Shown: piece by piece, positions 5,057 to 55,040 of the stretch
Layout of the letters: each line of letters opens with the position of its first letter
How positions within the stretch are numbered: the stretch's first letter is position 1
DNA from: Urechidicola sp.
GTDB taxonomy: Bacteria > Bacteroidota > Bacteroidia > Flavobacteriales > Flavobacteriaceae
DNA: 64,000 nt
Assembly (NCBI GenBank): GCA_028599075.1
Contig: JAQRMW010000119.1
Span: 1 to 64,000, forward strand
Direction: 5' to 3'
Notes under the pieces: generated by a model
Told to the model about the DNA's origin: nothing
What the model saw: only the letters and a program-made list of their open reading frames with translations
The model's database searches: none
Made by a program: the position numbers and the translations under genes

Positions 5057-7482
5057 CAGCGTCTTATCAAACTAAAATGCCCCCTTTGTTCGCGTATGTT
5101 TCCGTTGCTATCAACCAATGTTGCCGTGAACCAATAATCGGTTTCAGGTAATTTCTTATTGTTGTAGAATCCGTCCCAACCATCACTTTGAGGTAAAATA
5201 TTCGCAACCATTTTTCCGAAGCGATCAAAAATTCGAATGGTAGAAGAAGTGTAGAAATTTCTGTTCACTCCTAAAATATGCCAAGTATCGTTATAGCCAT
5301 CATCATTTGGGGTAAAGAATTTTGGAAAGCCAATAATAGGGACTTCCAAAGTAAAATCATCACAACCATAAATATCTCTGATAAAAATTGTACGTACTCC
5401 AGGAATTACATTTTCAAAAACGGGACTATTTTGGTAATCTCCAATTCCGCCTTCTGTATCATCTAAGGCAAATTCATAATCATCTAAATTAAAACTTGGA
5501 TCTTGTGGGCTTATGGTGATGGTATTGTTATCAGTTAAATCTTCAATAAAAATATCATCAATTGTTAAAAGGCCAATTTCAAATTTTTCTACAAATACAG
5601 GAGTTATAGTTTGGCAATTGTTAAAAGGGTCGGTTGCAGTAAGTGTAATTGTAAGTCCTCCATCAGGAATAAAATCTAATGTAAGTATATCTAATGTTTC
5701 TGTGTTAGATAAAACACTAGCATCATCTAAAGTCCAAACATAATCATAAACCCCAGCTGGATTTTTTACTGAAATAGCATCGGGTAAATTATTAGAGCAC
5801 ACTATTTTTCCATCAACCAATTCATAGATTGGTACGTTGTTTACAATTAAATTAAATTCAACTGTATCAAAGCAAGTATCATTGTCGATGTTAAAAACCT
5901 TAGCATAGATAAGCTGTGCATTTGCTATGTTATTTTCGTAAGGATTATTTTTATCAATAGGAATTGTAAATGCGATATCTTCGTAATATTGCACATCAAA
6001 CTGATTGATATCCAAAGCACCCAATATTTCGGTATCTTTATCTGTTAATAGTAAAGATTGGATGATGCCATTCTCTACATCATCATCTTCATCGTCATCA
6101 CACATTATTAAATCTGTTGGAATCGTTGCTACAGGTGTTTCAGAAATAATCACATTAGTAATAGTAATTGCAGATTCTCCTAAAAAGTTGGTAGATTCAA
6201 CTTCAACAGCATAGGTTCCTGGTGCCGTAAATATATATGTTGGACTTTGAAGGGTAGAAGTATTGTTTGCACCAGAGGCAGGGTCGTCAAAATTCCAGAT
6301 TTGACTCACTTCGGGGTTTACAATATTGAACTGAGTATTTTCTCCATAACACAAATTTTCACTTGTAACTTCTTTCCAAAAATAGGACTGAATGAACGGA
6401 GGGAGTCCAAGTTTTGAACGTCTATCATTTAATGAAATTCCGATATCTTGATAATTACAGCCAGTTCCTAAAACATTAGGGTCATTAATTACACTTAAAT
6501 ACGAATAAAACTCTCTAGCAATATATATTTTACCGTTTGGGGCAATTTGTAAGGCACCAATACCAGCAACATTATTCATTATTTCTAATTTAGAATTGAT
6601 AATGTCAGTTGGTGTTGCTAATTCTAAATTATATTGATATAAAGAACCTCCAAAATCTGTTACAAATAATAGCTTGCTGTCTAATGAGAATTCGACACCA
6701 TATACATTTGCTGTTGCACCATTAAAACCAGATAGAGTTATTAGGTTTGAAAGAGTTCCTGTTAAATCATCAAAGTCAAATAATTGAACCTCTCTGTTGT
6801 CGTAACTGTTTGCTATAGCAACTTTACGACCGTTAGGAGAAAACTTCATTGCACCAACAGTGTTAAATGTATTCCCTGTAATTGTAGTACCAATATTTGA
6901 TATTTGAGGAGAACTAACACCAGAACTAGAAACTCTATATGCCGCAAATTCTTGGCTATTAAATTTATGTGATAGCACCCACCAATCTGTATCGTTTTGA
7001 TGTTTTACAGCTGTAATTTTTTCGGTAGTAGGCGTGTGAAGTTGATTGTTTTTGCTTGATGTTACACCACCTTGTCCTCCATCTAATAGCATATTAACTT
7101 CAGAATATTGAAGTCCATTGCCTCCACCTAAATCATCAACGGTAAAAATATAATAGATGTCAGGGTTTTCAGGTTTTGGAATAATAATAGCAGAATTTGT
7201 GCTAGAAATATCGCCGTTTAAATCTTCGCCATTCAGCATGATGTCGTGGTTTTTATTCCAAACAGTACTACCATCTGTATAAAATAGTAAATCACCTTCA
7301 TAACTAGAAATTGCAGCACAGCCTTCATTGGTTGTTAGCAAACCATCAGATAAAGCAACAGGGCTCCCTGAATTAAAATCGAGACCAGCTAAGTCGCCAA
7401 AATACCAAAAGGCAGTTTGTTTTTGAGCAAAAGATTGAATGCTCATTGTAATTAAAAATATGATTAATAAACCTTTTTTCAT
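5056..7482 (-). CDS. T9SS type B sorting domain protein (paralog 1 of tandem family)
   Basis: N-term FWYFGDLAGLDFNSG...; C-term FFTPNDDGYNDTWHILGVNRNFYTSSTIRIFDRFGKMVA... Confidence 0.8.
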   Translation of the reverse strand: MKKGLLIIFLITMSIQSFAQKQTAFWYFGDLAGLDFNSGSPVALSDGLLTTNEGCAAISSYEGDLLFYTDGSTVWNKNHDIMLNGEDLNGDISSTNSAIIIPKPENPDIYYIFTVDDLGGGNGLQYSEVNMLLDGGQGGVTSSKNNQLHTPTTEKITAVKHQNDTDWWVLSHKFNSQEFAAYRVSSSGVSSPQISNIGTTITGNTFNTVGAMKFSPNGRKVAIANSYDNREVQLFDFDDLTGTLSNLITLSGFNGATANVYGVEFSLDSKLLFVTDFGGSLYQYNLELATPTDIINSKLEIMNNVAGIGALQIAPNGKIYIAREFYSYLSVINDPNVLGTGCNYQDIGISLNDRRSKLGLPPFIQSYFWKEVTSENLCYGENTQFNIVNPEVSQIWNFDDPASGANNTSTLQSPTYIFTAPGTYAVEVESTNFLGESAITITNVIISETPVATIPTDLIMCDDDEDDDVENGIIQSLLLTDKDTEILGALDINQFDVQYYEDIAFTIPIDKNNPYENNIANAQLIYAKVFNIDNDTCFDTVEFNLIVNNVPIYELVDGKIVCSNNLPDAISVKNPAGVYDYVWTLDDASVLSNTETLDILTLDFIPDGGLTITLTATDPFNNCQTITPVFVEKFEIGLLTIDDIFIEDLTDNNTITISPQDPSFNLDDYEFALDDTEGGIGDYQNSPVFENVIPGVRTIFIRDIYGCDDFTLEVPIIGFPKFFTPNDDGYNDTWHILGVNRNFYTSSTIRIFDRFGKMVANILPQSDGWDGFYNNKKLPETDYWFTATLVDSNGNIREQRGHFSLIRR

Positions 7483-7485
7483 ATA

Positions 7486-10305
7486 CTATTCTAAAATTCT
7501 ACGGACTAAACTAAAATGTCCTTGCCTTTTTCTAATACTCCCATCGTTCTCAACAATTTCTGCCTTAAACCAATAATCTGTTTCAGGTAATTCATCTCCG
7601 TTATAAATGCCATCCCAACCATTTTCAAATGGTTTTATGACTGCCATTATTTTACCATAGCGGTCATATATTTCAACGGTTGATTCTGTATAAAAATTGC
7701 GATTTACCCCTTTTACTGTCCATGTGTCATTCCAACCATCATTGTTTGGTGTGAAGAATTTTGGGAATCCAATTACTGAAACTTCAAGCGCTGTTACACC
7801 ACATCCGTTTTTATCTTTTACAAAGATAACATGAATTCCGATTTCTACATTATCAAAGAAGGGTTCGTCTTGATATTCTCCAAAGGCATAATCCAACGCA
7901 AATTCATAATCACCAATTCCTAAGTTTCCAGGCGAATTATTTATTGTGATTGTATTATTTGTTGCATCATCTGTAATTGAAACATCCTCTAATGTAATTG
8001 TTGCTACATCAGATTCTCTAACATTCACAATTTTTTCAAACGAAGGACATCCCAAATTAGAGAATGCCGTTACAGTATAAACTCCACCCGATGTTACAGT
8101 AGCAGTTATATTGGTGCTAAAGATAAATCCGCTTTCGTTTTTCCACTGATAAGTATAGTTGTCTACCGGGTTTAAAGCTTCTAATATCAAGATAGGGTTC
8201 AAATTGATACATAAACTTAGATCTGATTCTACATCAAAATCGGGTCTAGGGTTTACTCGTAAAATTACAAAAGGACCTATACCAAAGCAAGCACCATCAT
8301 CGTCATTTTCGACTCTTACATAAATCACTTCTAAAAAAGGAGTAGTACTCATATATTCATTTGAAATATCAATTTCATTCAATTCTAATTGTGCATCAGA
8401 AAGAGAATTGTAATAGTGTACACTTAAATTTTGACCAACTGGAAATTGTGCTAATAAATTTGCTGAAGCTGAAGATAAATCGAATAAATGCAATCCATCT
8501 ATAGTATCATCGTCATCACAAGTTGTCATTTGTTCACCAGTATAGCTTGGAGGAAATGTAGTAGTTGAAACCATTAAGTCTACCGTAGTTACACTATGGC
8601 AACCATTGGGGTTTTCTATGCGAGCATAGATTGTTGCTGCTGTTGCATTGTTATAAGGTACAGGATCTAAGGGATTCATACCTGTACCTGCTTCTAAATA
8701 GGATAAATAATAAGTGACTGTTAACTCCGAGTCTCCATTTGTTAAATAGGTAGAAATCTCGTCTAAATTAAAATCTGTAAATCCATCTGCAATACCATCC
8801 ACATCGCAATTGTTGAATTGGATAGAGGGAGGTAAAGCTAAAGGGTCGTAAACGTCAATAATGAACTCACCAATTAATAAACTGCTATTTCCGCATAGGT
8901 CAATATGTGTAACCTCTAATGTATATTCTCCGTTAAGTGCTGATGTTGCATTTGTAAATGAGAGTACTGGATCCGTTGAAAACGGAAATCTTGCACCATT
9001 GAAAAACCATTCATAGGTAGCTGTGCCTCCTAAAACTTCAGAAAAAATATCGAAATCTTCTCCATCACATAAATAAACAGTTTGACCATTGACAACTTGT
9101 GTATCCCCATTTTGACTTTCTCCAATAATTTGAACTTGTGAGAAAATGGAAGCAATAAAAGGAGGTAACCCTTGGGTTGATAGGTTACCTAATAAACCAA
9201 CAGAGGCATGTGAGTAATCACAAGCAGCCCCGGTTATTTCAGGATTATTTATAACCCCCAAAAGAGGTAAGCCCTCAGTATATTCATATGCTAAAGAACG
9301 ATATATTCTTCTATCTGGCCCTAATTGCAATGCTCCTCTAAATAATGTGCTCTCATGAATAATTGTTATTGAACTATTGATTGTATTGGCATTGTTTGAT
9401 GAAATATCAAATTGAAACAGGGTAGAGAAATGTTGTAAAGGTGGTTGTTCTTCTGGAGGACCATCTAATAATGAATTGAAAGCATCATTAGATGCTACAA
9501 CATAGAACATTTTACTATTGGCCGAAAATTCAACCCCATATGGTCTATCACCTTCTGTAATTAAAGGCAAACTTATTTGGTTAGAAACTTTACCAGTACT
9601 ATCATTAAAGTCGTACAATAGAAAACCATCTTCCATTTGATGTGCTAAAGCTAATTTAGTGCCGTCAGGAGATAGTTTTAAATATCCTCTTCTGTCTGTT
9701 GCATTAAATGCTGATGAAGATGTTACTGGAGTTTCATCAACACCATCTTCGGTAACTTTATATGCATAAAAATCTGGAAAAACATATGATACCACCCAAA
9801 ATGTTCCAGTTTCTGCTCCTTTCACTGCAGCTACTTTTTCTGACCAATCACTAAAACGCCCATTTGATAAATCGATGGGGCCCTCTATAATATCTCCCAT
9901 GCCTGCATCTTCGTCCATATCTAAGGTATAATAATTAAAACCTTCATCGCCAGAATTATCATCTACAGTAAAAATATAGTAGATGTTTGTACTTCCTGGT
10001 TTTGGAATAATCATAGCAGACTGTGAGCTAGAAGGATCTCCTAAAAGATCTGTTCCATTTGGCATTATATCATGGTTTCTATTCCAAACAGTGCTGCCAT
10101 CAGAATAGAACAAAAGACTCCCTGAGGCATCAGAAAAAGAAGAGCATCCTTCAATTGTATTTAATTCACCATCGGTTATTGCAAAAGGGTCACAGTTATT
10201 AAAATCTAATCCAGCATTTTCTCCAAAATACCAAATATTAGCTTCTCCTTGCCCAAACATGCAAAAAGTATAAAGAATGGCTAATATGTTAGTAATATAT
10301 TTCAC
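7486..10305 (-). CDS. T9SS type B sorting domain protein (paralog 2 of tandem family)
   Basis: Same N- and C-terminal domains as the neighbours; two CDDD-type internal repeat units. Confidence 0.8.
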   Translation of the reverse strand: MKYITNILAILYTFCMFGQGEANIWYFGENAGLDFNNCDPFAITDGELNTIEGCSSFSDASGSLLFYSDGSTVWNRNHDIMPNGTDLLGDPSSSQSAMIIPKPGSTNIYYIFTVDDNSGDEGFNYYTLDMDEDAGMGDIIEGPIDLSNGRFSDWSEKVAAVKGAETGTFWVVSYVFPDFYAYKVTEDGVDETPVTSSSAFNATDRRGYLKLSPDGTKLALAHQMEDGFLLYDFNDSTGKVSNQISLPLITEGDRPYGVEFSANSKMFYVVASNDAFNSLLDGPPEEQPPLQHFSTLFQFDISSNNANTINSSITIIHESTLFRGALQLGPDRRIYRSLAYEYTEGLPLLGVINNPEITGAACDYSHASVGLLGNLSTQGLPPFIASIFSQVQIIGESQNGDTQVVNGQTVYLCDGEDFDIFSEVLGGTATYEWFFNGARFPFSTDPVLSFTNATSALNGEYTLEVTHIDLCGNSSLLIGEFIIDVYDPLALPPSIQFNNCDVDGIADGFTDFNLDEISTYLTNGDSELTVTYYLSYLEAGTGMNPLDPVPYNNATAATIYARIENPNGCHSVTTVDLMVSTTTFPPSYTGEQMTTCDDDDTIDGLHLFDLSSASANLLAQFPVGQNLSVHYYNSLSDAQLELNEIDISNEYMSTTPFLEVIYVRVENDDDGACFGIGPFVILRVNPRPDFDVESDLSLCINLNPILILEALNPVDNYTYQWKNESGFIFSTNITATVTSGGVYTVTAFSNLGCPSFEKIVNVRESDVATITLEDVSITDDATNNTITINNSPGNLGIGDYEFALDYAFGEYQDEPFFDNVEIGIHVIFVKDKNGCGVTALEVSVIGFPKFFTPNNDGWNDTWTVKGVNRNFYTESTVEIYDRYGKIMAVIKPFENGWDGIYNGDELPETDYWFKAEIVENDGSIRKRQGHFSLVRRILE

Positions 10306-16691: not shown

Positions 16692-16909
16692 TTAGAATGA
16701 TATAGGTAATCCAATTAAATACTTATACCCGACAGCAGTTACTATTGCTATTCCAAAACTTAAAAGTGTTCCAATTAATATATATTCTGTTAGATTTCGG
16801 TCTTTGGCATTCGATAAATCACCAAATCTAAATACAGATTTTGCGGCTAACAGAAAACCTATTCCTTCCCAATAATCTAAAATTATAAAAGAAAAAATAA
16901 ACAGTCGTT
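16692..16909 (-). pseudogene. C-terminal fragment of DUF3307 membrane protein, separated from its N-terminus by the prophage
   Basis: LFIFSFIILDYWEGIGFLLAAKSVFRFGDLSNAKDRNLTEYILIGTLLSFGIAI...; joins in frame to the fragment at 54541-55040. Confidence 0.85.
16906..16909. repeat. Target-site duplication, left copy (CGTT)
   Basis: CGTT directly abuts the prophage TATA end; the same 4 bp are at 54541-54544. Confidence 0.75.
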
Positions 16910-16939
16910 TATAATCGGCGAAACCAAAAGTACACTTTT

Positions 16940-17404
16940 TTAGACTAATGCGGGACAACTATATGTTTCTTTTTTAATGCCATTTAAACACTGTTTAATC
17001 ATCTCTTTAGTGATGTGTGCAATCATAAGTGGCGGCACACTCATCCCACATACATATCTCACATTATAATCAAGAAAATCATAATCAATAGGAAAGCTAC
17101 TCATGCGCCGATATTCAAGGTCATTAACTGCACGCTTCTCTTCATAGTACACCCATATCCCACCACTTGTTAATGCTCCTGGCACTATGTTATCATATAA
17201 TATTTGAGTACTAAAGAATGCATTAAATGTGTTCTTATTGCGATATTTTGCATCTGCAAATTTTAGGTTCTGATCACCGCGCTCTACATAAGGCAATCGA
17301 GTTTCTATCGATGGCCATAACTTCTGATGTGTAGTTGAGCCCTTATCTGCTATCGAACCAAAATATATAGGTGCGGCATCAAAATCTAATACTAGTTTTG
17401 GCAT
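16940..17404 (-). pseudogene. C-terminal fragment of a phage cytosine-C5 DNA methyltransferase
   Basis: ...THQKLWPSIETRLPYVERGDQNLKFADAKYRNKNTFNAFF...LEYRRMSSFPIDYDFLDYNVRYVCGMSVPPLMIAHI resembles the C5-MTase C-terminus; the PC and ENV motifs are absent. Confidence 0.6.
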
Positions 17405-17891
17405 GTTCTATATTCACATTCTGGATCCTAATCGAATACTCTTCAGTAAACGAGTTTCTTTTTCTTGTAATTTTTGACGATGTTGCTCCCTTTTTCCTAT
17501 CATACCCAAACGACCCATCTAGCATAGAGCTGAACGACTGTGCTGCTAAATTCCAAACTGCCCAAGCTCTTTGTATTCTACTAAACAAATGAGGGTTGTT
17601 ATAGATTACTGTAGCATCATTATGTAATGACCGGGAGTGTAGTGATATTCTGATCATCTTCTCCAGGTCCACAAATTCATTTTGTACTATCTCATAAAAA
17701 TTAATGAGTTCTCTATTGGTATCATTAATCACTTCTACATCACTTCTTTGCTTTGCCCAAAAAATTGCACCGCCACCAACAAAAGGCTCTGCATACAAAG
17801 TATGTTTAGGAAACAAGGGCAAAATAGTGGTAATTAAATTTTGTTTACCTCCGTAATAACTAATAGGTGTTTTTAAATTTTCTGTACTCAA
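17379..17891 (-). pseudogene. N-terminal fragment of a D12-class adenine-N6 DNA methyltransferase (Dam-like)
   Basis: TPISYYGGKQNLI...LYAEPFVGGGAIFWAK; ORF ends at NVNIEHAKTSIRF, before the expected DPPY motif. Confidence 0.75.
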
Positions 17892-17910
17892 TTTTTATTA
17901 TTTTTGTGGC

Positions 17911-18014
17911 GTTCGCCAAAACACAAACACCGATTAACTCAAAAGACTCTTGTCCTCTGTAGTGCTTAATCGGTGCTTTTATTTTTAGTTTTGGCGAACT
18001 GAAGACAGAGGACA
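17911..18014. other. Three interleaved perfect inverted repeats (pseudoknot-capable element)
   Basis: A: GTTCGCCAAAAC 17911-17922 / GTTTTGGCGAAC 17988-17999; B: CACCGATTAA 17928-17937 / TTAATCGGTG 17966-17975; C: TGTCCTCTGT 17951-17960 / ACAGAGGACA 18005-18014. Confidence 0.8.
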
Positions 18015-18044
18015 TTTTTACACCGCTCCTCTAGCGGTTACGTA

Positions 18045-18908
18045 TCATCCTATAAACATCATATAAGCTGTTGTAAAATAAGGGGGTCTATTCTCATGCG
18101 CCTCACTAGATCCTTTATTAGCAGTAACAATATTTACACTCTGATCTGGCGACATTGATGTTTCGGTAACATCAACAGCTCCTGTGTTGTTACTATTTGA
18201 AAACGTATTGTCATCACCAGACGCACCAACTTTAGAATATACAGTTGCAGGCATTGAATGTTTATGTCCTGGTACCACAACATTACCATCATGATTATGC
18301 TGTGGCATTTGAGCTTCAGTAATAGCAATCTCTTTTGCGCCACCCTGTTTTCCAATAGCATCATAATCTACATCTGCAGGGTCATAACCTACCATAAAGG
18401 CTCCTGTCATATCTGGTGTACCATTTGTACCATCGCACAATTGAAATCCTGAAGGGATATTAGCAATAACCCCAACATAAGGTAGTATTACATTGCTCAA
18501 ATACTTGCTTAAAAAATTGTGGAAAGCAGGTTTTAAATCTGTAAATGGAAACTCTAAAACAGAGTTGGCTAATCCAGCACCACAAATTGCTTTTCTAGTA
18601 ACGTACCCATCCTTTAAGTCTAAGTTTCCATCAACATTTAAGTCCTCATTATATGGTATTTGCTCAATGGTTTCAATTATCGAAACTGTGGCATGTGCAG
18701 CAGACTCATCAAAAGGTAAAACTTCGCCCTGATAAACAATGAAACCTGCACTAATAGTTCCTGCAGTATCTTCTACACCATTTAATATATAGGTTGTACC
18801 TCCAAATGATGTAAGTGCTTTTATTGCTGATTCATGAGCTGAATGCAAAAACTGAATTGATTTCGTAGTTAAAGGAAATCCTCCTGATTGTAATATTATG
18901 TGATCCAT
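18045..18908 (-). CDS. Phage tail collar / tail fibre protein
   Basis: Tail-collar-like ...VGVIANIPSGFQLCDGTNGTPDMTGAFMVGYDPA...HNHDGN...AHENRPPYFTTAYMMFIG. Confidence 0.8.
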   Translation of the reverse strand: MDHIILQSGGFPLTTKSIQFLHSAHESAIKALTSFGGTTYILNGVEDTAGTISAGFIVYQGEVLPFDESAAHATVSIIETIEQIPYNEDLNVDGNLDLKDGYVTRKAICGAGLANSVLEFPFTDLKPAFHNFLSKYLSNVILPYVGVIANIPSGFQLCDGTNGTPDMTGAFMVGYDPADVDYDAIGKQGGAKEIAITEAQMPQHNHDGNVVVPGHKHSMPATVYSKVGASGDDNTFSNSNNTGAVDVTETSMSPDQSVNIVTANKGSSEAHENRPPYFTTAYMMFIG

Positions 18909-34331: not shown

Positions 34332-34405
34332 TGGCGAGGTAGAGCAGTGGTAGCTCGTTGGGCTCATATCCCAAAGGTCGCAGGTTCGAGTCCTGCCCTT
34401 CGCTA
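34332..34405 (+). tRNA. tRNA-Met (CAT), initiator-like, with irregular acceptor stem
   Basis: D-arm GAGC-AGTGGTA-GCTC, anticodon arm TTGGG-CTCATAT-CCCAA (three G-C pairs), T-arm GCAGG-TTCGAGT-CCTGC; acceptor TGGCGAGG / CCTTCGCTA needs a bulge. Confidence 0.8.
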
Positions 34406-36931: not shown

Positions 36932-38170
36932 ATGAAGATATTTGGATTTGAAATAAATCGTTCTAAGGGGCTAAATAACGCAAATGCTATAAAAGGTGAT
37001 GGAGGTAGATTAATTGCTGCTGATAAAGATTTGATAATGAAAATTGTCAACGGCTTTAAAGACAGTAGTCGTAAAGACATACAAAAATGGCGAAACGCTA
37101 TTAAGATAACGCAGCTACCCGAAAAACCTCGATACGATGCATTACAAGATTTGTACGACGATTTAATGACCGATGGTCATTTACGTGGTGAGTTAAGATT
37201 GCGTAAGTATTCAATACTCAATACGGCATTTAGTATTGTAGATAAAAGTAGCAATAAAGAAAATGAAGAGGCTACAGAATTCTTTAATCAAAAATGGTTT
37301 TATCAATTATTATCTCATGCCATCGATTCAACAATTAAGGGACACACCTTGGTTGAATTCAAAGCCTTTTATAAAGATAAAATTGAACACGTTTTAATTC
37401 CACGGCGCAATGTTGTACCACAGCAAAAAATTATTGTACCAGACTTAACCAAAGAAGATGTTGTTGATTATACTGACCCTTATTTTGAAGATTGGCTTAT
37501 TGAAATGGGTGGCGATGATGAAGATAGCAAACTCGGAATTTTAAATGACATTATACCAAACCTAATTTGGAAACGAAATGTAGCACAGTCTTGGGCAGAG
37601 TTTTGCGAAAAATTTGGAATGCCTTTAATCACAGCAACAACCAATACTACTGACACTAAAAAGCTCGATAAAATTGAGTATATGCTACAACAGTTAGGCG
37701 AAGCATCTACTGGTGTATTTCCTTTAGGAACTACGGTAGAGATAAAAGAAGCTAGTAGAACAGATGCTTATAATACTTATTTAAACTTTATCAAGTTTAA
37801 TCGTGAAGAGATAAGTGTTGCTTTAGTTGGGGGTACTATGATTATGAGTGATGGTAGTTCTCGAAGTCAATCAGAAGTACACGAACGTAATTTAGATGAT
37901 AAAATTTCTGCAGCTGAAAAACGCTCGCTAGGTTTCTTGGTAAATGATGTTGTTATTCCATTATTACGAAACCAAGGATATTCGTTCCTGAAGGAAAATG
38001 ATAAATTTATTTTCAATCAATCTCATAACCTGGACCTTGATAAATTTTGGAGTATTACTAAAGGAATAATGAAAGACTTTGATGTTGATCCTGATTGGCT
38101 CACATCTACTTTCTACGTTCCTATCGTGGGTAAAAAAAAAAATCCCAACCCAAAATCAAACCTTGAGTAA
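36932..38170 (+). CDS. Portal protein (DUF935, Mu gp29-like)
   Basis: 412 aa; ...DDLMTDGHLRGELRLRKYSILNTAFSI...WKRNVAQSWAEFCEKFGMPLITATTN... Confidence 0.85.
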   Translation: MKIFGFEINRSKGLNNANAIKGDGGRLIAADKDLIMKIVNGFKDSSRKDIQKWRNAIKITQLPEKPRYDALQDLYDDLMTDGHLRGELRLRKYSILNTAFSIVDKSSNKENEEATEFFNQKWFYQLLSHAIDSTIKGHTLVEFKAFYKDKIEHVLIPRRNVVPQQKIIVPDLTKEDVVDYTDPYFEDWLIEMGGDDEDSKLGILNDIIPNLIWKRNVAQSWAEFCEKFGMPLITATTNTTDTKKLDKIEYMLQQLGEASTGVFPLGTTVEIKEASRTDAYNTYLNFIKFNREEISVALVGGTMIMSDGSSRSQSEVHERNLDDKISAAEKRSLGFLVNDVVIPLLRNQGYSFLKENDKFIFNQSHNLDLDKFWSITKGIMKDFDVDPDWLTSTFYVPIVGKKKNPNPKSNLE

Positions 38171-39479
38171 TGTAACTGCATTCGGAGCACGTGTCCCTAA
38201 TTATCCTGAGTCGATATGCTGCGACCACTTCGTTGCAGTTGCCTCAGGGCTTTCAGAACGCATCAAAAAAATACAGGATCAACTCGCTAAAGAAATTTAT
38301 GAGAGTAAGCAAAACCTAGATACTCAAGCACAGTTAATTGCTGAAGAGGGTTTATTAATGATAAACGGTTTGCATAATGGTTATGGTAAATTACGAGTTG
38401 AAGCTGCTTGGGATGCTCCTGATCATTTAATGCTTCAAATGATGGAATTAAACATCATTGAGTTTGCAGCTTCTAAAACCGAAGCGCGTTTTGCTGCCAT
38501 GACAGATTTGATGTTGAACCGTGATAAAAATCAAATTCGCTCATTTAGTGACTTTAAAAGCGAAGTTGATAAGTTAACCAGTAACTATAACAAAACTTGG
38601 TTAGAGACCGAGTATAACTTTTCAATTGCAACAGCTCAAAACTCAGCCGCATATATGCGCCAAAAATCAGAAGCCGAAAGTGTAACGCCGTATGTACAAT
38701 ATCAAACCGTTGGCGATGATCAGGTAAGAGACGAACACGCCTTATTAGATGGCAGAGTTTTTAATCTAAATGATAAAGAAGCAATGCGCCTTTATCCTCC
38801 AAACGGTTACAACTGCCGTTGTGAGATGATACAATATGTTGGTAATAAAGATAAAGTAATCAGTGGTAAATCCGCAGTAAAATTATTAGGTGATCAGTTT
38901 GAGGGCTCTGCTTTTAATTTTAATAGAGCTGATGCTAAACAAGTTTTTAAACGCAGTCAATTTTATACAGATGATGGTGAGGTACTAACAAAAATTAATG
39001 ATATCAGTTACGAGTCTTATAAAAATTTAACCGCTTGGAAATTATTTAAAAGCAAGTTAAAAAAACTAAAAATTGACAAGACGATTGTTCCTGGTAATAA
39101 GGATGAGTTGTTTAGATCTGATGGAAAACGTGGAAAAGTAGATTTTATGGGCTTTACAGACCATTTACAACGTAAAGTTATACTTAAAAAAGATGTTTTT
39201 GATACACATACTTCGGGTAAATACTTACAAAAAGGCGAAGTGAGACACCAGCTTTTTCCACACGTAAAAAGTGTATTGAATGATGCTGATGAAGTATGGT
39301 TAATTTCTGTAAGTGATAAGAAATACATTATGCGATATATCAAGTTTTTTGCAGATGAAGTTTTGATAATCGAAACCGAAATCGGAGCAAAAAGCAATGA
39401 AATTAAAACATGGTATAAAATGAAAACTGACGAAATTGATAGAAGAAAAGGATTGTTATTAAAAAAGCGAAAGGTTTAA
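38161..39479 (+). CDS. Mu gpF-like head morphogenesis protein with C-terminal nuclease-like domain (start uncertain)
   Basis: ...YVQYQTVGDDQVRDEHALLDGRVF...YPPNGYNCRCEMIQYV (Mu F-like) followed by a PBECR-like C-terminal region; no ATG near the portal stop, TTG at 38161 possible. Confidence 0.75.
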
Positions 39480-39589: not shown

Positions 39590-41626
39590 ATGAGTGCAAC
39601 AGCAAAATTAAGATTGATTTTAGAACTAGGAAACAAGCTCTTTAACAATAAATTAGTACAAACTCAACGCAAATTAAGAAAGAGTACTGATAAAATGAAA
39701 GGCAAGTTAAAAAGCCTTAAAATATCATCTATAGATGCTTTTTCTGCTATGCGTAATGAAGTCCCTTTATTTGGCAGGGCAATGGACTTGTTAGGTAACC
39801 CCTATGTTCTTTTAACCGCAGGACTCCTTGCGGTCGTCACGCTGATGGGTAAAGCAACTGTCGAAGCCAAAAAATTCAATCATGAGTTCCTTCAGGTACA
39901 AAACTTGAATCTCGATAAAAACAATGCAGATTTAAAAACCTATAAAGGGCTTATCAGGGATACTTCTTTTGAAACTGGTAGAGGCTTGGTAGAATCAACC
40001 AAGGCATATTACGACATTCAATCTGCTCTTGGATTCTATGGTAAAGATGCCGAAAAAGTATTTAAGCAAGTAGCCAAATTTAGTACAGCTACTGGTGCAG
40101 ATTTAAACGATTCTATAAATCAAACTTCAAAAGCTATTAAAGCCTTTGGCCTAGATGCAAAGGATACCGAAATGCTGTTAGATAGCAATGCTAAAACTGT
40201 GCAAGTAGGTATTACAACCTTTAAAGAGCTGGCAAAAGTACAAACCGAGTATGCGGGTGCAGCTGCAGGTGCTGGACAAGAAGTTGATAGTGCTAATAAA
40301 CTATTTGCTGCCTTTACGTCAATTGCAAAAGATAGTAGAACTGCCGCTACCATGACCAAGACAGCTTTTATGGGATTGACCCAAAAAACAACATTAAAAG
40401 GACTTAAAGATATTGGTGTAAGTGTTTATGATGCAAACGGCGAGGTTAGAGATTTGGGCAAAATTTTGATTGATGTAGATAAGCAATTCAAAAAATTAAC
40501 TCCTAAACAAATTGATGCTGTCATCAATAAAATTGGTGGTCCAGAAGGACTCCGAGCTTTACTAACAAAAATGAAGACTGGAGCTGATGATTTATTCAAG
40601 ACATTTTACGCTTTTGACGCCTCTAAATTTAACTTAAATGATGCTCTAAAAAATGCCCATGCTGATGCAACCGTATTAGGACAGATGGTAAAAAATAGAT
40701 TCAATACTATTATGGCGCGCTTAGGCGAAAAAATTATGCCATTGGTGGTTAAAGTGCTTAATAAAGTAAATATCGTACTCACATGGATTTATGATAATTT
40801 TGAGTTGTTAGAAGATATTGTTGAATCTGTAGCTTTTGGCTTTGGTGTACTCGGTGCAAGATTACTTTATTTTCAAGGAATGGCATTATTATCAACATTC
40901 GCATCTGTTGGCTTAAGTGGTGCATTGGGTATGGTAACTTTAGGACTCCACGCTATTAAAACGGCTATCTTCAGTATTCCTATTGTTGGGTGGATTTTAT
41001 TAGCAGTTTCGGCAGTAGTATTGCTCTATAAACGATTCGATAAATTTAGAGCTGTAATCAATGGGTTGGGTGCAGTTTTAAAAGCATTCTTTGTAAATAT
41101 GTGGGAAGGGTTTAAAGATGTTCTCGGAAGCATTATAGATGGTCTAGGTGCTGTTGGAAAAATGCTTAAAGGTCTTTGGGATATGGATTGGGATAAAGTG
41201 AAAGAAGGTGCTAGTGAGTTTGGAGATGCTGTTAAAAGAGGTGTTGGAGGAGCCATAGATATGAATCCTCTCGGTAGTGCTATTAAAAATGGTAAAGAGT
41301 ATGGCAAGGCCTTTAAGGGTGCTTATGATAAAGAAATGGACAAAAGTGCTGCTGCCAAAAATAAAAAAGAGAAAGAAAAAAACTTACTAGACCCAAACAA
41401 TACTGATGAAGAAATTACAACCACCAATACCAATACTGGAGGCGATATTAATAAAGTGAGTAGTGCGGGCTCTGCACCAAAAACCATCATTATTGAAAAA
41501 ATTACTTTTAACGAGGGTGGTATCAATACCACAAATACGGTACTTAATAACATGTCTAAAGAAGAGATTGAAGAGTGGTTTAACGAGTCTATGATGAGAG
41601 TAATTAGAAATGCAGAAATGAGTTAA
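39590..41626 (+). CDS. Phage tail tape measure protein (TP901-like)
   Basis: ...TSFETGRGLVESTKAYYDIQSALGFYGKDAEKVFKQVAKFSTATGADLNDSINQTSKAIKAFG...; hydrophobic segments. Confidence 0.88.
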   Translation: MSATAKLRLILELGNKLFNNKLVQTQRKLRKSTDKMKGKLKSLKISSIDAFSAMRNEVPLFGRAMDLLGNPYVLLTAGLLAVVTLMGKATVEAKKFNHEFLQVQNLNLDKNNADLKTYKGLIRDTSFETGRGLVESTKAYYDIQSALGFYGKDAEKVFKQVAKFSTATGADLNDSINQTSKAIKAFGLDAKDTEMLLDSNAKTVQVGITTFKELAKVQTEYAGAAAGAGQEVDSANKLFAAFTSIAKDSRTAATMTKTAFMGLTQKTTLKGLKDIGVSVYDANGEVRDLGKILIDVDKQFKKLTPKQIDAVINKIGGPEGLRALLTKMKTGADDLFKTFYAFDASKFNLNDALKNAHADATVLGQMVKNRFNTIMARLGEKIMPLVVKVLNKVNIVLTWIYDNFELLEDIVESVAFGFGVLGARLLYFQGMALLSTFASVGLSGALGMVTLGLHAIKTAIFSIPIVGWILLAVSAVVLLYKRFDKFRAVINGLGAVLKAFFVNMWEGFKDVLGSIIDGLGAVGKMLKGLWDMDWDKVKEGASEFGDAVKRGVGGAIDMNPLGSAIKNGKEYGKAFKGAYDKEMDKSAAAKNKKEKEKNLLDPNNTDEEITTTNTNTGGDINKVSSAGSAPKTIIIEKITFNEGGINTTNTVLNNMSKEEIEEWFNESMMRVIRNAEMS

Positions 41627-54421: not shown

Positions 54422-54540
54422 CAAATTTCGACCAAAAAATAACTAAGATTAAAGATAGTTTAAACGATAATTAAAACAAATTCAACCAAAAAATACTTGA
54501 ATACCTTTATTTTAGTGTACTTTTAGTATTACCCCCTATA

Positions 54541-54544
54541 CGTT
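54541..54544. repeat. Target-site duplication, right copy (CGTT)
   Basis: Matches 16906-16909. Confidence 0.75.
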
Positions 54545-55040
54545 CTAACATACCAATATACTTTCCTGCTTGGTTAGGAGACTTGTCCTTTATTTTCCAT
54601 TTAGAAATGAGTATTTTAATTATAATCGCTGATACATAAGTAGTTATTAAAATAGCTGTTATAAAAAGCAAAGGACCAATGCTAAAAAAAGCAGTTATAT
54701 TTATATTGAAAGGATAATACAAATATACAGCACACAAAATCACCATTATATGTAGAGCTTGATCAATAAAAAATAATATTTGTGTACTAACTTTAGCATC
54801 TAAATTTAGTTTTATTAAATCAATGATGTAATGAGAAATAATAATTAAGGTAATAGCTTTCCAGTAATAGAAATTGAATTGTAATATGATTAATAATAAA
54901 ACTATATGTATTAATAGATGCCAATATAAATAAGGAGATTTGTGTTTCTTTTTTTTCTTGTTAGCTATCCATTTATCGGGTTGAAATAAAAAGTCGCCCA
55001 TTAAATGAGCTAAAATAAATTTTATGGCTAGTGCTAACAT
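54541..55040 (-). pseudogene. N-terminal fragment of DUF3307 membrane protein, truncated by prophage insertion
   Basis: MLALAIKFILAHLMGDFLFQPDKWIANKKKKKHKSPYLYWHLLIHI...GKYIGMLER then runs into the phage end (IGGNTKSTLK*). Confidence 0.88.

Follow-up and report, generated by a model that had tools for sequence, protein, structure and literature searches.

A probable pseudoknotted small RNA gene beside the DNA-modification genes of Bacteroidota phages

Introduction

What is encoded at positions 17911–18014 of a Urechidicola contig, where three perfect inverted repeats are packed between a phage tail collar gene and a methylase gene? The question comes from a first-pass annotation, made from the letters of the window alone (the whole stretch of 64,000 nucleotides analyzed here), which described the repeats as capable of forming a pseudoknot, with more pairing than chance would give and no known feature to match. 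As described below, this element is very likely a conserved, pseudoknotted small RNA gene of about 110 nt that lies outside Rfam. The best explanation of its presence, which we consider somewhat more probable than all others together, is a phage small-RNA gene on the plus strand controlling the adjacent DNA-modification cargo.

Inverted Repeats and Their Folding

All three repeats were confirmed at the coordinates originally reported, and the following positions refer to the plus strand. Stem A (12 bp) is formed by a 5′ arm, GTTCGCCAAAAC, at 17911–17922 and a 3′ arm at 17988–17999, and stem B (10 bp) by CACCGATTAA at 17928–17937 and its partner at 17966–17975; the spacers between the A and B blocks are 5 and 12 nt, as had been described. 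The 10-bp helix C joins TGTCCTCTGT in the apical loop (17951–17960) to ACAGAGGACA (18005–18014), whose arm begins 5 nt outside stem A, so that C crosses both A and B as claimed. Folded without the pseudoknot, the minus strand reaches −51.9 kcal/mol (z −7.5 against shuffles) and the plus strand −38.5 kcal/mol (z −3.6), and no shuffle matches the fold energy of either strand: the pairing is indeed above chance. The extent given for the element holds for the repeats and not for its boundaries, since a promoter box at 17899–17906 and a T-run at 18015–18019 also belong to it.

Some familiar classes of repeat were tried and rejected. The element is present as a single copy in the 3.36-Mb genome, which rules out a dispersed repeat or MITE. 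The outer boxes of an integron attC site should read RYYYAAC…GTTRRRY, whereas GTTCGCC…GGCGAAC, the reverse orientation, is found; and a hairpin of a diversity-generating retroelement (DGR) was rejected because no reverse transcriptase was recognized in the window.

Relatives in Phages and Prophages

A plain DNA similarity search found no homologue of the element in phages or in 100 relatives, since members have entirely different stem sequences. The closest relative by the collar gene, L028, harbors at the same place an element of the same architecture with other stems and the same apical motif. This conserved apical region (17942–17964; family consensus AGAAGACUU..GUCCUCCGUAG) is the motif by which the family was found: searching with it added another 15 viral contigs judged to be true members and 11 such genome contigs, the latter from Capnocytophaga, Epilithonimonas, Kaistella, Halpernia, Mesonia, Flavobacterium and one doubtful metagenome-assembled genome. 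Six pattern hits (L115, L118, L119, L129, L133 and L141) were judged to be chance.

Covariance models extended the family. Model R1, built from ten motif-found relatives with the window left out, matches the window at 41.6 bits and also finds 13 more divergent loci among 400 family genomes. Model R2, built from 32 sequences, again without the window, matches 17908–18019 on the plus strand at 54.6 bits (E 4e-8, a rough value, as are all E-values of these models), as against 16.4 bits on the minus strand. R2 adds members from three other families of the class and also detects hankyphage p00, Flavobacterium phage fF4 and Elizabethkingia phage TCUEAP3. Found by apical motif and models together, the family comprises 43 distinct loci, all in Bacteroidota phages or prophages, and the window, recognized by two models to which it had not contributed, shares their other traits as well: a −7 box bordering stem A on its 5′ side, a T-run after C and a modification gene on the promoter side. 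Five model hits (L157, L158, L159, L178 and L181) have no promoter box, apical motif or cargo and were regarded as chance. One contig, L132, is binned as Cardiobacteriaceae, yet its RNA resembles the Capnocytophaga forms, possibly a case of mis-binning.

Covariation and the Strand of the RNA

Covariation in homologues, proposed in the first-pass annotation as a check of the pseudoknot, was examined in 32 distinct sequences. RNAalifold on a plain MAFFT alignment finds helix C and misplaces A and B, and alignments fitted to the structure were therefore used. In these, 93.4% of the cells are paired, and 28 of the 31 pairs show changes on both sides. The covariation score is 0.632, against 0.172 ± 0.012 for shuffled alignments and 0.05–0.10 for slid ones; none of 500 shuffles was as good on any measure, a count that overstates independence because the sequences are related. 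Stem A is paired in 96.5% and changed on both sides in all 11 modeled pairs, and stem B in 87.9% with such changes in 12/12, figures that lean towards structure for these two stems, to which the alignments were fitted. Helix C, which is absent from the model structure, is free of this bias: it is paired in 97.3%, with five pairs changed on both sides. Its variants are CCG/CGG, CTG/CAG (the window), CCAG/CTGG, CCAAC/GTTGG, CAG/CTG and CCCCAG/CTGGGG. The pseudoknot is thus upheld by compensatory change, while the primary sequence of the apical region and the tail is strongly conserved.

The RNA strand is the plus strand, opposite to the flanking genes, although it is the minus strand that gives the stronger simple fold. 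Three observations lead to this assignment: the asymmetry of wobble pairs, the model scores quoted above, and the promoter box described below. In the interior of helix C, read on the plus strand, there are 22 G-U and no A-C wobbles; in stem A, leaving out the next-to-end positions, the counts are six and zero. For helix B taken alone the strand argument is weaker, since an A-C mismatch close to its top is retained in several members.

Promoter and 3′ End

Between −16 and +4 relative to the start of the RNA model, 41 of the 43 loci have a sequence fitting TAnnTTTG, the consensus of the Bacteroidota sigma-A −7 box, against a background of 7e-4 per position; on the cargo strand such a sequence occurs in this region in only 1 of the 43. 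The box had played no part in the first search motif. In the window this predicted sigma-A −7 box is TATTTTTG at 17899–17906 on the plus strand, and its place is fixed in those same 41 loci. Mapping of transcription start sites in F. psychrophilum supplied this consensus and put the box at −12 to −5 (PMC9723704), and the predicted start in the window is accordingly 17911, the first base of stem A. For hankyphage, the RNA is predicted to start about 5 nt after TATCTTTG on the minus strand of BK010646, at about 40550–40680.

The plus-strand T-run at 18015–18019 directly follows helix C, and TTTT is found there in 38/43 loci. A GC-rich helix followed by TTTTT has the form of an intrinsic terminator, which accounts for the 3′ end of the element only. 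The predicted small RNA gene, the part matched by model R2, would therefore span 17911–18019 on the plus strand, ending in the T-run. Just outside it, a further GAGG/GGAGG copy on the minus strand (18022–18040), present in most members, could pair with the arm of C, giving the late operon a terminator.

Prophage Context and Modification Cargo

The window holds a Mu-like prophage, with a Mu portal (E 2e-68), a Mu F protein, an rve-type transposase and a MuB-like AAA protein. A host DUF3307 gene is apparently split by it, the start lying at 54507–55040 (PF11750) and a tail piece, recognized by eye, at 16692–16958; the prophage ends are placed on this basis near 16.96 and 54.5 kb, where no target-site duplication could be singled out. 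Inside the prophage, 38079–39479 encodes a Mu F-like head protein that carries a PBECR2 nuclease-like domain at its C terminus, and a tRNA gene (Rfam RF00005) lies at 34334–34404.

The element is found about 1 kb from the right end of the prophage, between the last late gene, a tail collar/Gp10_C gene (18045–18908, minus strand; PF21939, E 3e-7), and the N-terminal part of a D12-class adenine methylase (17379–17891, minus strand; PF02086, E 3e-16), the cargo gene. Directly after the latter lies a C-terminal piece of a C5 cytosine methylase (16940–17404; weak, E 9e-4). The cargo of the window looks truncated or fused by deletion.

A modification-type gene within 2.5 kb on the promoter side is common to all 43 loci, usually at 20–60 nt, while on the late side only one of the 43 has a modification-gene match. 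The cargo comprises two kinds of D12 methylase, thymidylate-synthase-like proteins (PF00303), C5 methylase, Mom (PF25680), and a cassette of ABC, GNAT-like and formyltransferase genes, and these families (D12, thymidylate-synthase-like, C5, Mom, ABC plus formyltransferase) are mutually unrelated. For example, the RNA directly precedes mom in phage TCUEAP3, and Mom is the second cargo gene of L136 (PF25680, E 6e-60). The RNA and the modification gene are separated in hankyphage and in its relative L179 by a short gene, which in related phages carries the annotation of a Mor-domain activator. An ABC-type ATPase cassette recurs beside the RNA (L028 at 6161–7945, L114, L127, L143 and L180), in L028 also with a small GNAT-like protein and a formyltransferase; it is possibly an undescribed, Mom-like pathway of DNA modification.

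Among the 400 family genomes, a Mu portal occurs in 6 of the 13 that bear the RNA, against 0.3 expected from the nine genomes with a portal. Several members, however, adjoin phage regions of up to 39 kb without detectable similarity to the Mu-like genes of the window, indicating that the RNA is associated with the cargo more closely than with the type of phage.

Proposed Function and Alternative Explanations

That the RNA is transcribed is highly probable. Downstream of a host-type sigma-A promoter of its own at 17899–17906, the gene would encode a two-storey hairpin, A and then B, whose apical loop would pair with the 3′ tail as pseudoknot C; the transcript would end in the T-run that immediately follows this helix. 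Placed between the late structural operon and the modification cargo and pointing away from the latter, the RNA would be made in the lysogen from the host promoter. Any read-through from the late operon would express the modification enzyme from a transcript to whose leader the RNA is antisense, and the enzyme would be kept off until late transcription swamps the RNA, in the way that mom is restrained in Mu. The fixed, divergent position beside otherwise unrelated modification genes is most simply read as control of the cargo; taken as a claim by itself, we put such control at a little under an even chance. The antisense mechanism is an inference within that reading. The cargo start codon lies outside the RNA, and in a simple duplex test each RNA pairs with its own cargo start no better than with those of others (p = 0.70), so no specific base-pairing target is supported beyond the antisense leader. 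The conservation of apical region and tail exceeds the need of a plain antisense RNA and hints at a protein or trans target. Somewhat more tentatively, the loci may represent a class of pseudoknot RNAs, widespread in Bacteroidota phages, that controls any modification (anti-restriction) cassette in a general manner through its conserved fold and a protein or RNA partner.

The same conservation feeds the main rival explanation, in which the RNA is a phage moron acting in trans on the host, for example on anti-phage defense or a host RNA-binding protein, and shares an anti-restriction island with the modification genes. A promoter and a 3′ end of its own, as predicted, would suit such an RNA, and so would its constant link with anti-restriction-type cargo across phage types. 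Cargo that is adjoining, divergent and at a nearly fixed distance among the 43 loci speaks instead for a local role, and no target has been found so far; about one chance in a few would be a fair weight for action in trans, which we regard as unlikely. Considerably less probable is a function on the minus strand, with the structure forming part of the cargo mRNA and serving ahead of the modification genes as a leader switch, riboswitch or attenuator. The minus strand has the stronger fold, and its GGAGG…CCTCC hairpin followed by T could terminate the late operon, but the G-U over A-C asymmetry, the difference in model score (54.6 vs 16.4 bits) and the promoter box all favor the other strand.

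Since late genes give way to exchangeable cargo at the element in different phages, it might also be taken for a DNA site, such as a recombination module boundary or a packaging or transposition site, used in swapping modification cassettes. We hold this to be very improbable: compensatory changes that include G-U pairs belong to an RNA, as do a promoter and T-run specific to one strand, and stems A and B, being wholly different in sequence between members, offer no homology for recombination. Least probable of all is that the element is just a bidirectional terminator or that a 51-aa protein starts here. Hairpins and a T-run are present, but a terminator needs neither a conserved pseudoknot nor an apical motif or promoter box. 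The 51-codon minus-strand ORF pointed out in the first-pass annotation does exist (17860–18015); its start position is ATG in only 13 of 37 relatives, and in most of these 13 a stop follows within 15 codons, so a conserved protein that explains the sequence is refuted.

The preferred reading, control of the cargo by the RNA, has consequences beyond this prophage. A structured RNA absent from Rfam, carried by phages as common as the gut hankyphage and tied to anti-restriction genes in 43/43 loci, points to an unrecognized layer of control over DNA modification. It would give a handle on how Bacteroidota phages time their modification enzymes, and public RNA-seq allows an immediate test: stranded reads are available for hankyphage (E-MTAB-14274; PMC12135933).

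Comparison With Known Systems

At gathering thresholds, Rfam 15 gave no match at the element in the window, in six relatives and then in eight more loci, which agrees with the initial impression that no known feature fits; at relaxed thresholds the best sub-threshold match in the window scores 19.3 bits against 72.1. Our literature search retrieved no description of the pseudoknot RNA; a survey of human-microbiome RNAs reports phage-linked candidates, and its tables might list it (PMC8040213).

Structured phage-encoded RNAs with loop-tail or loop-loop pairing are known, namely the phi29 packaging RNA, GOLLD and ROOL, but they differ in size, fold and location, and none is matched by the element at the Rfam gathering threshold. 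A hairpin near a tail gene recalls DGR hairpins and the RT-3 RNA, and the hankyphage member indeed lies 3′ of a DGR in which RT-3 was found; the present RNA is, however, separate from RT-3, and no reverse transcriptase was recognized beside most members. Closer in presumed action are the plasmid antisense RNAs and the type I toxin-antitoxin systems, where a stable stem-loop RNA with its own promoter lies opposite the leader of a host-harming gene. The present RNA differs from these in its 3′ tail pseudoknot and strongly conserved apical sequence, in leaving the cargo start without overlap, and in sharing no common sequence family with them.

The control of mom in Mu involves the protein Com, the activator C and Dam sites. 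As in Mu, whose record has com and mom at this place, a modification gene directly follows at the right end of a transposable phage. Visual inspection of a set of loci showed no Com-like gene next to the RNA; where Mu uses the protein Com as regulator, the phages described here would use an RNA with its own host-type promoter.
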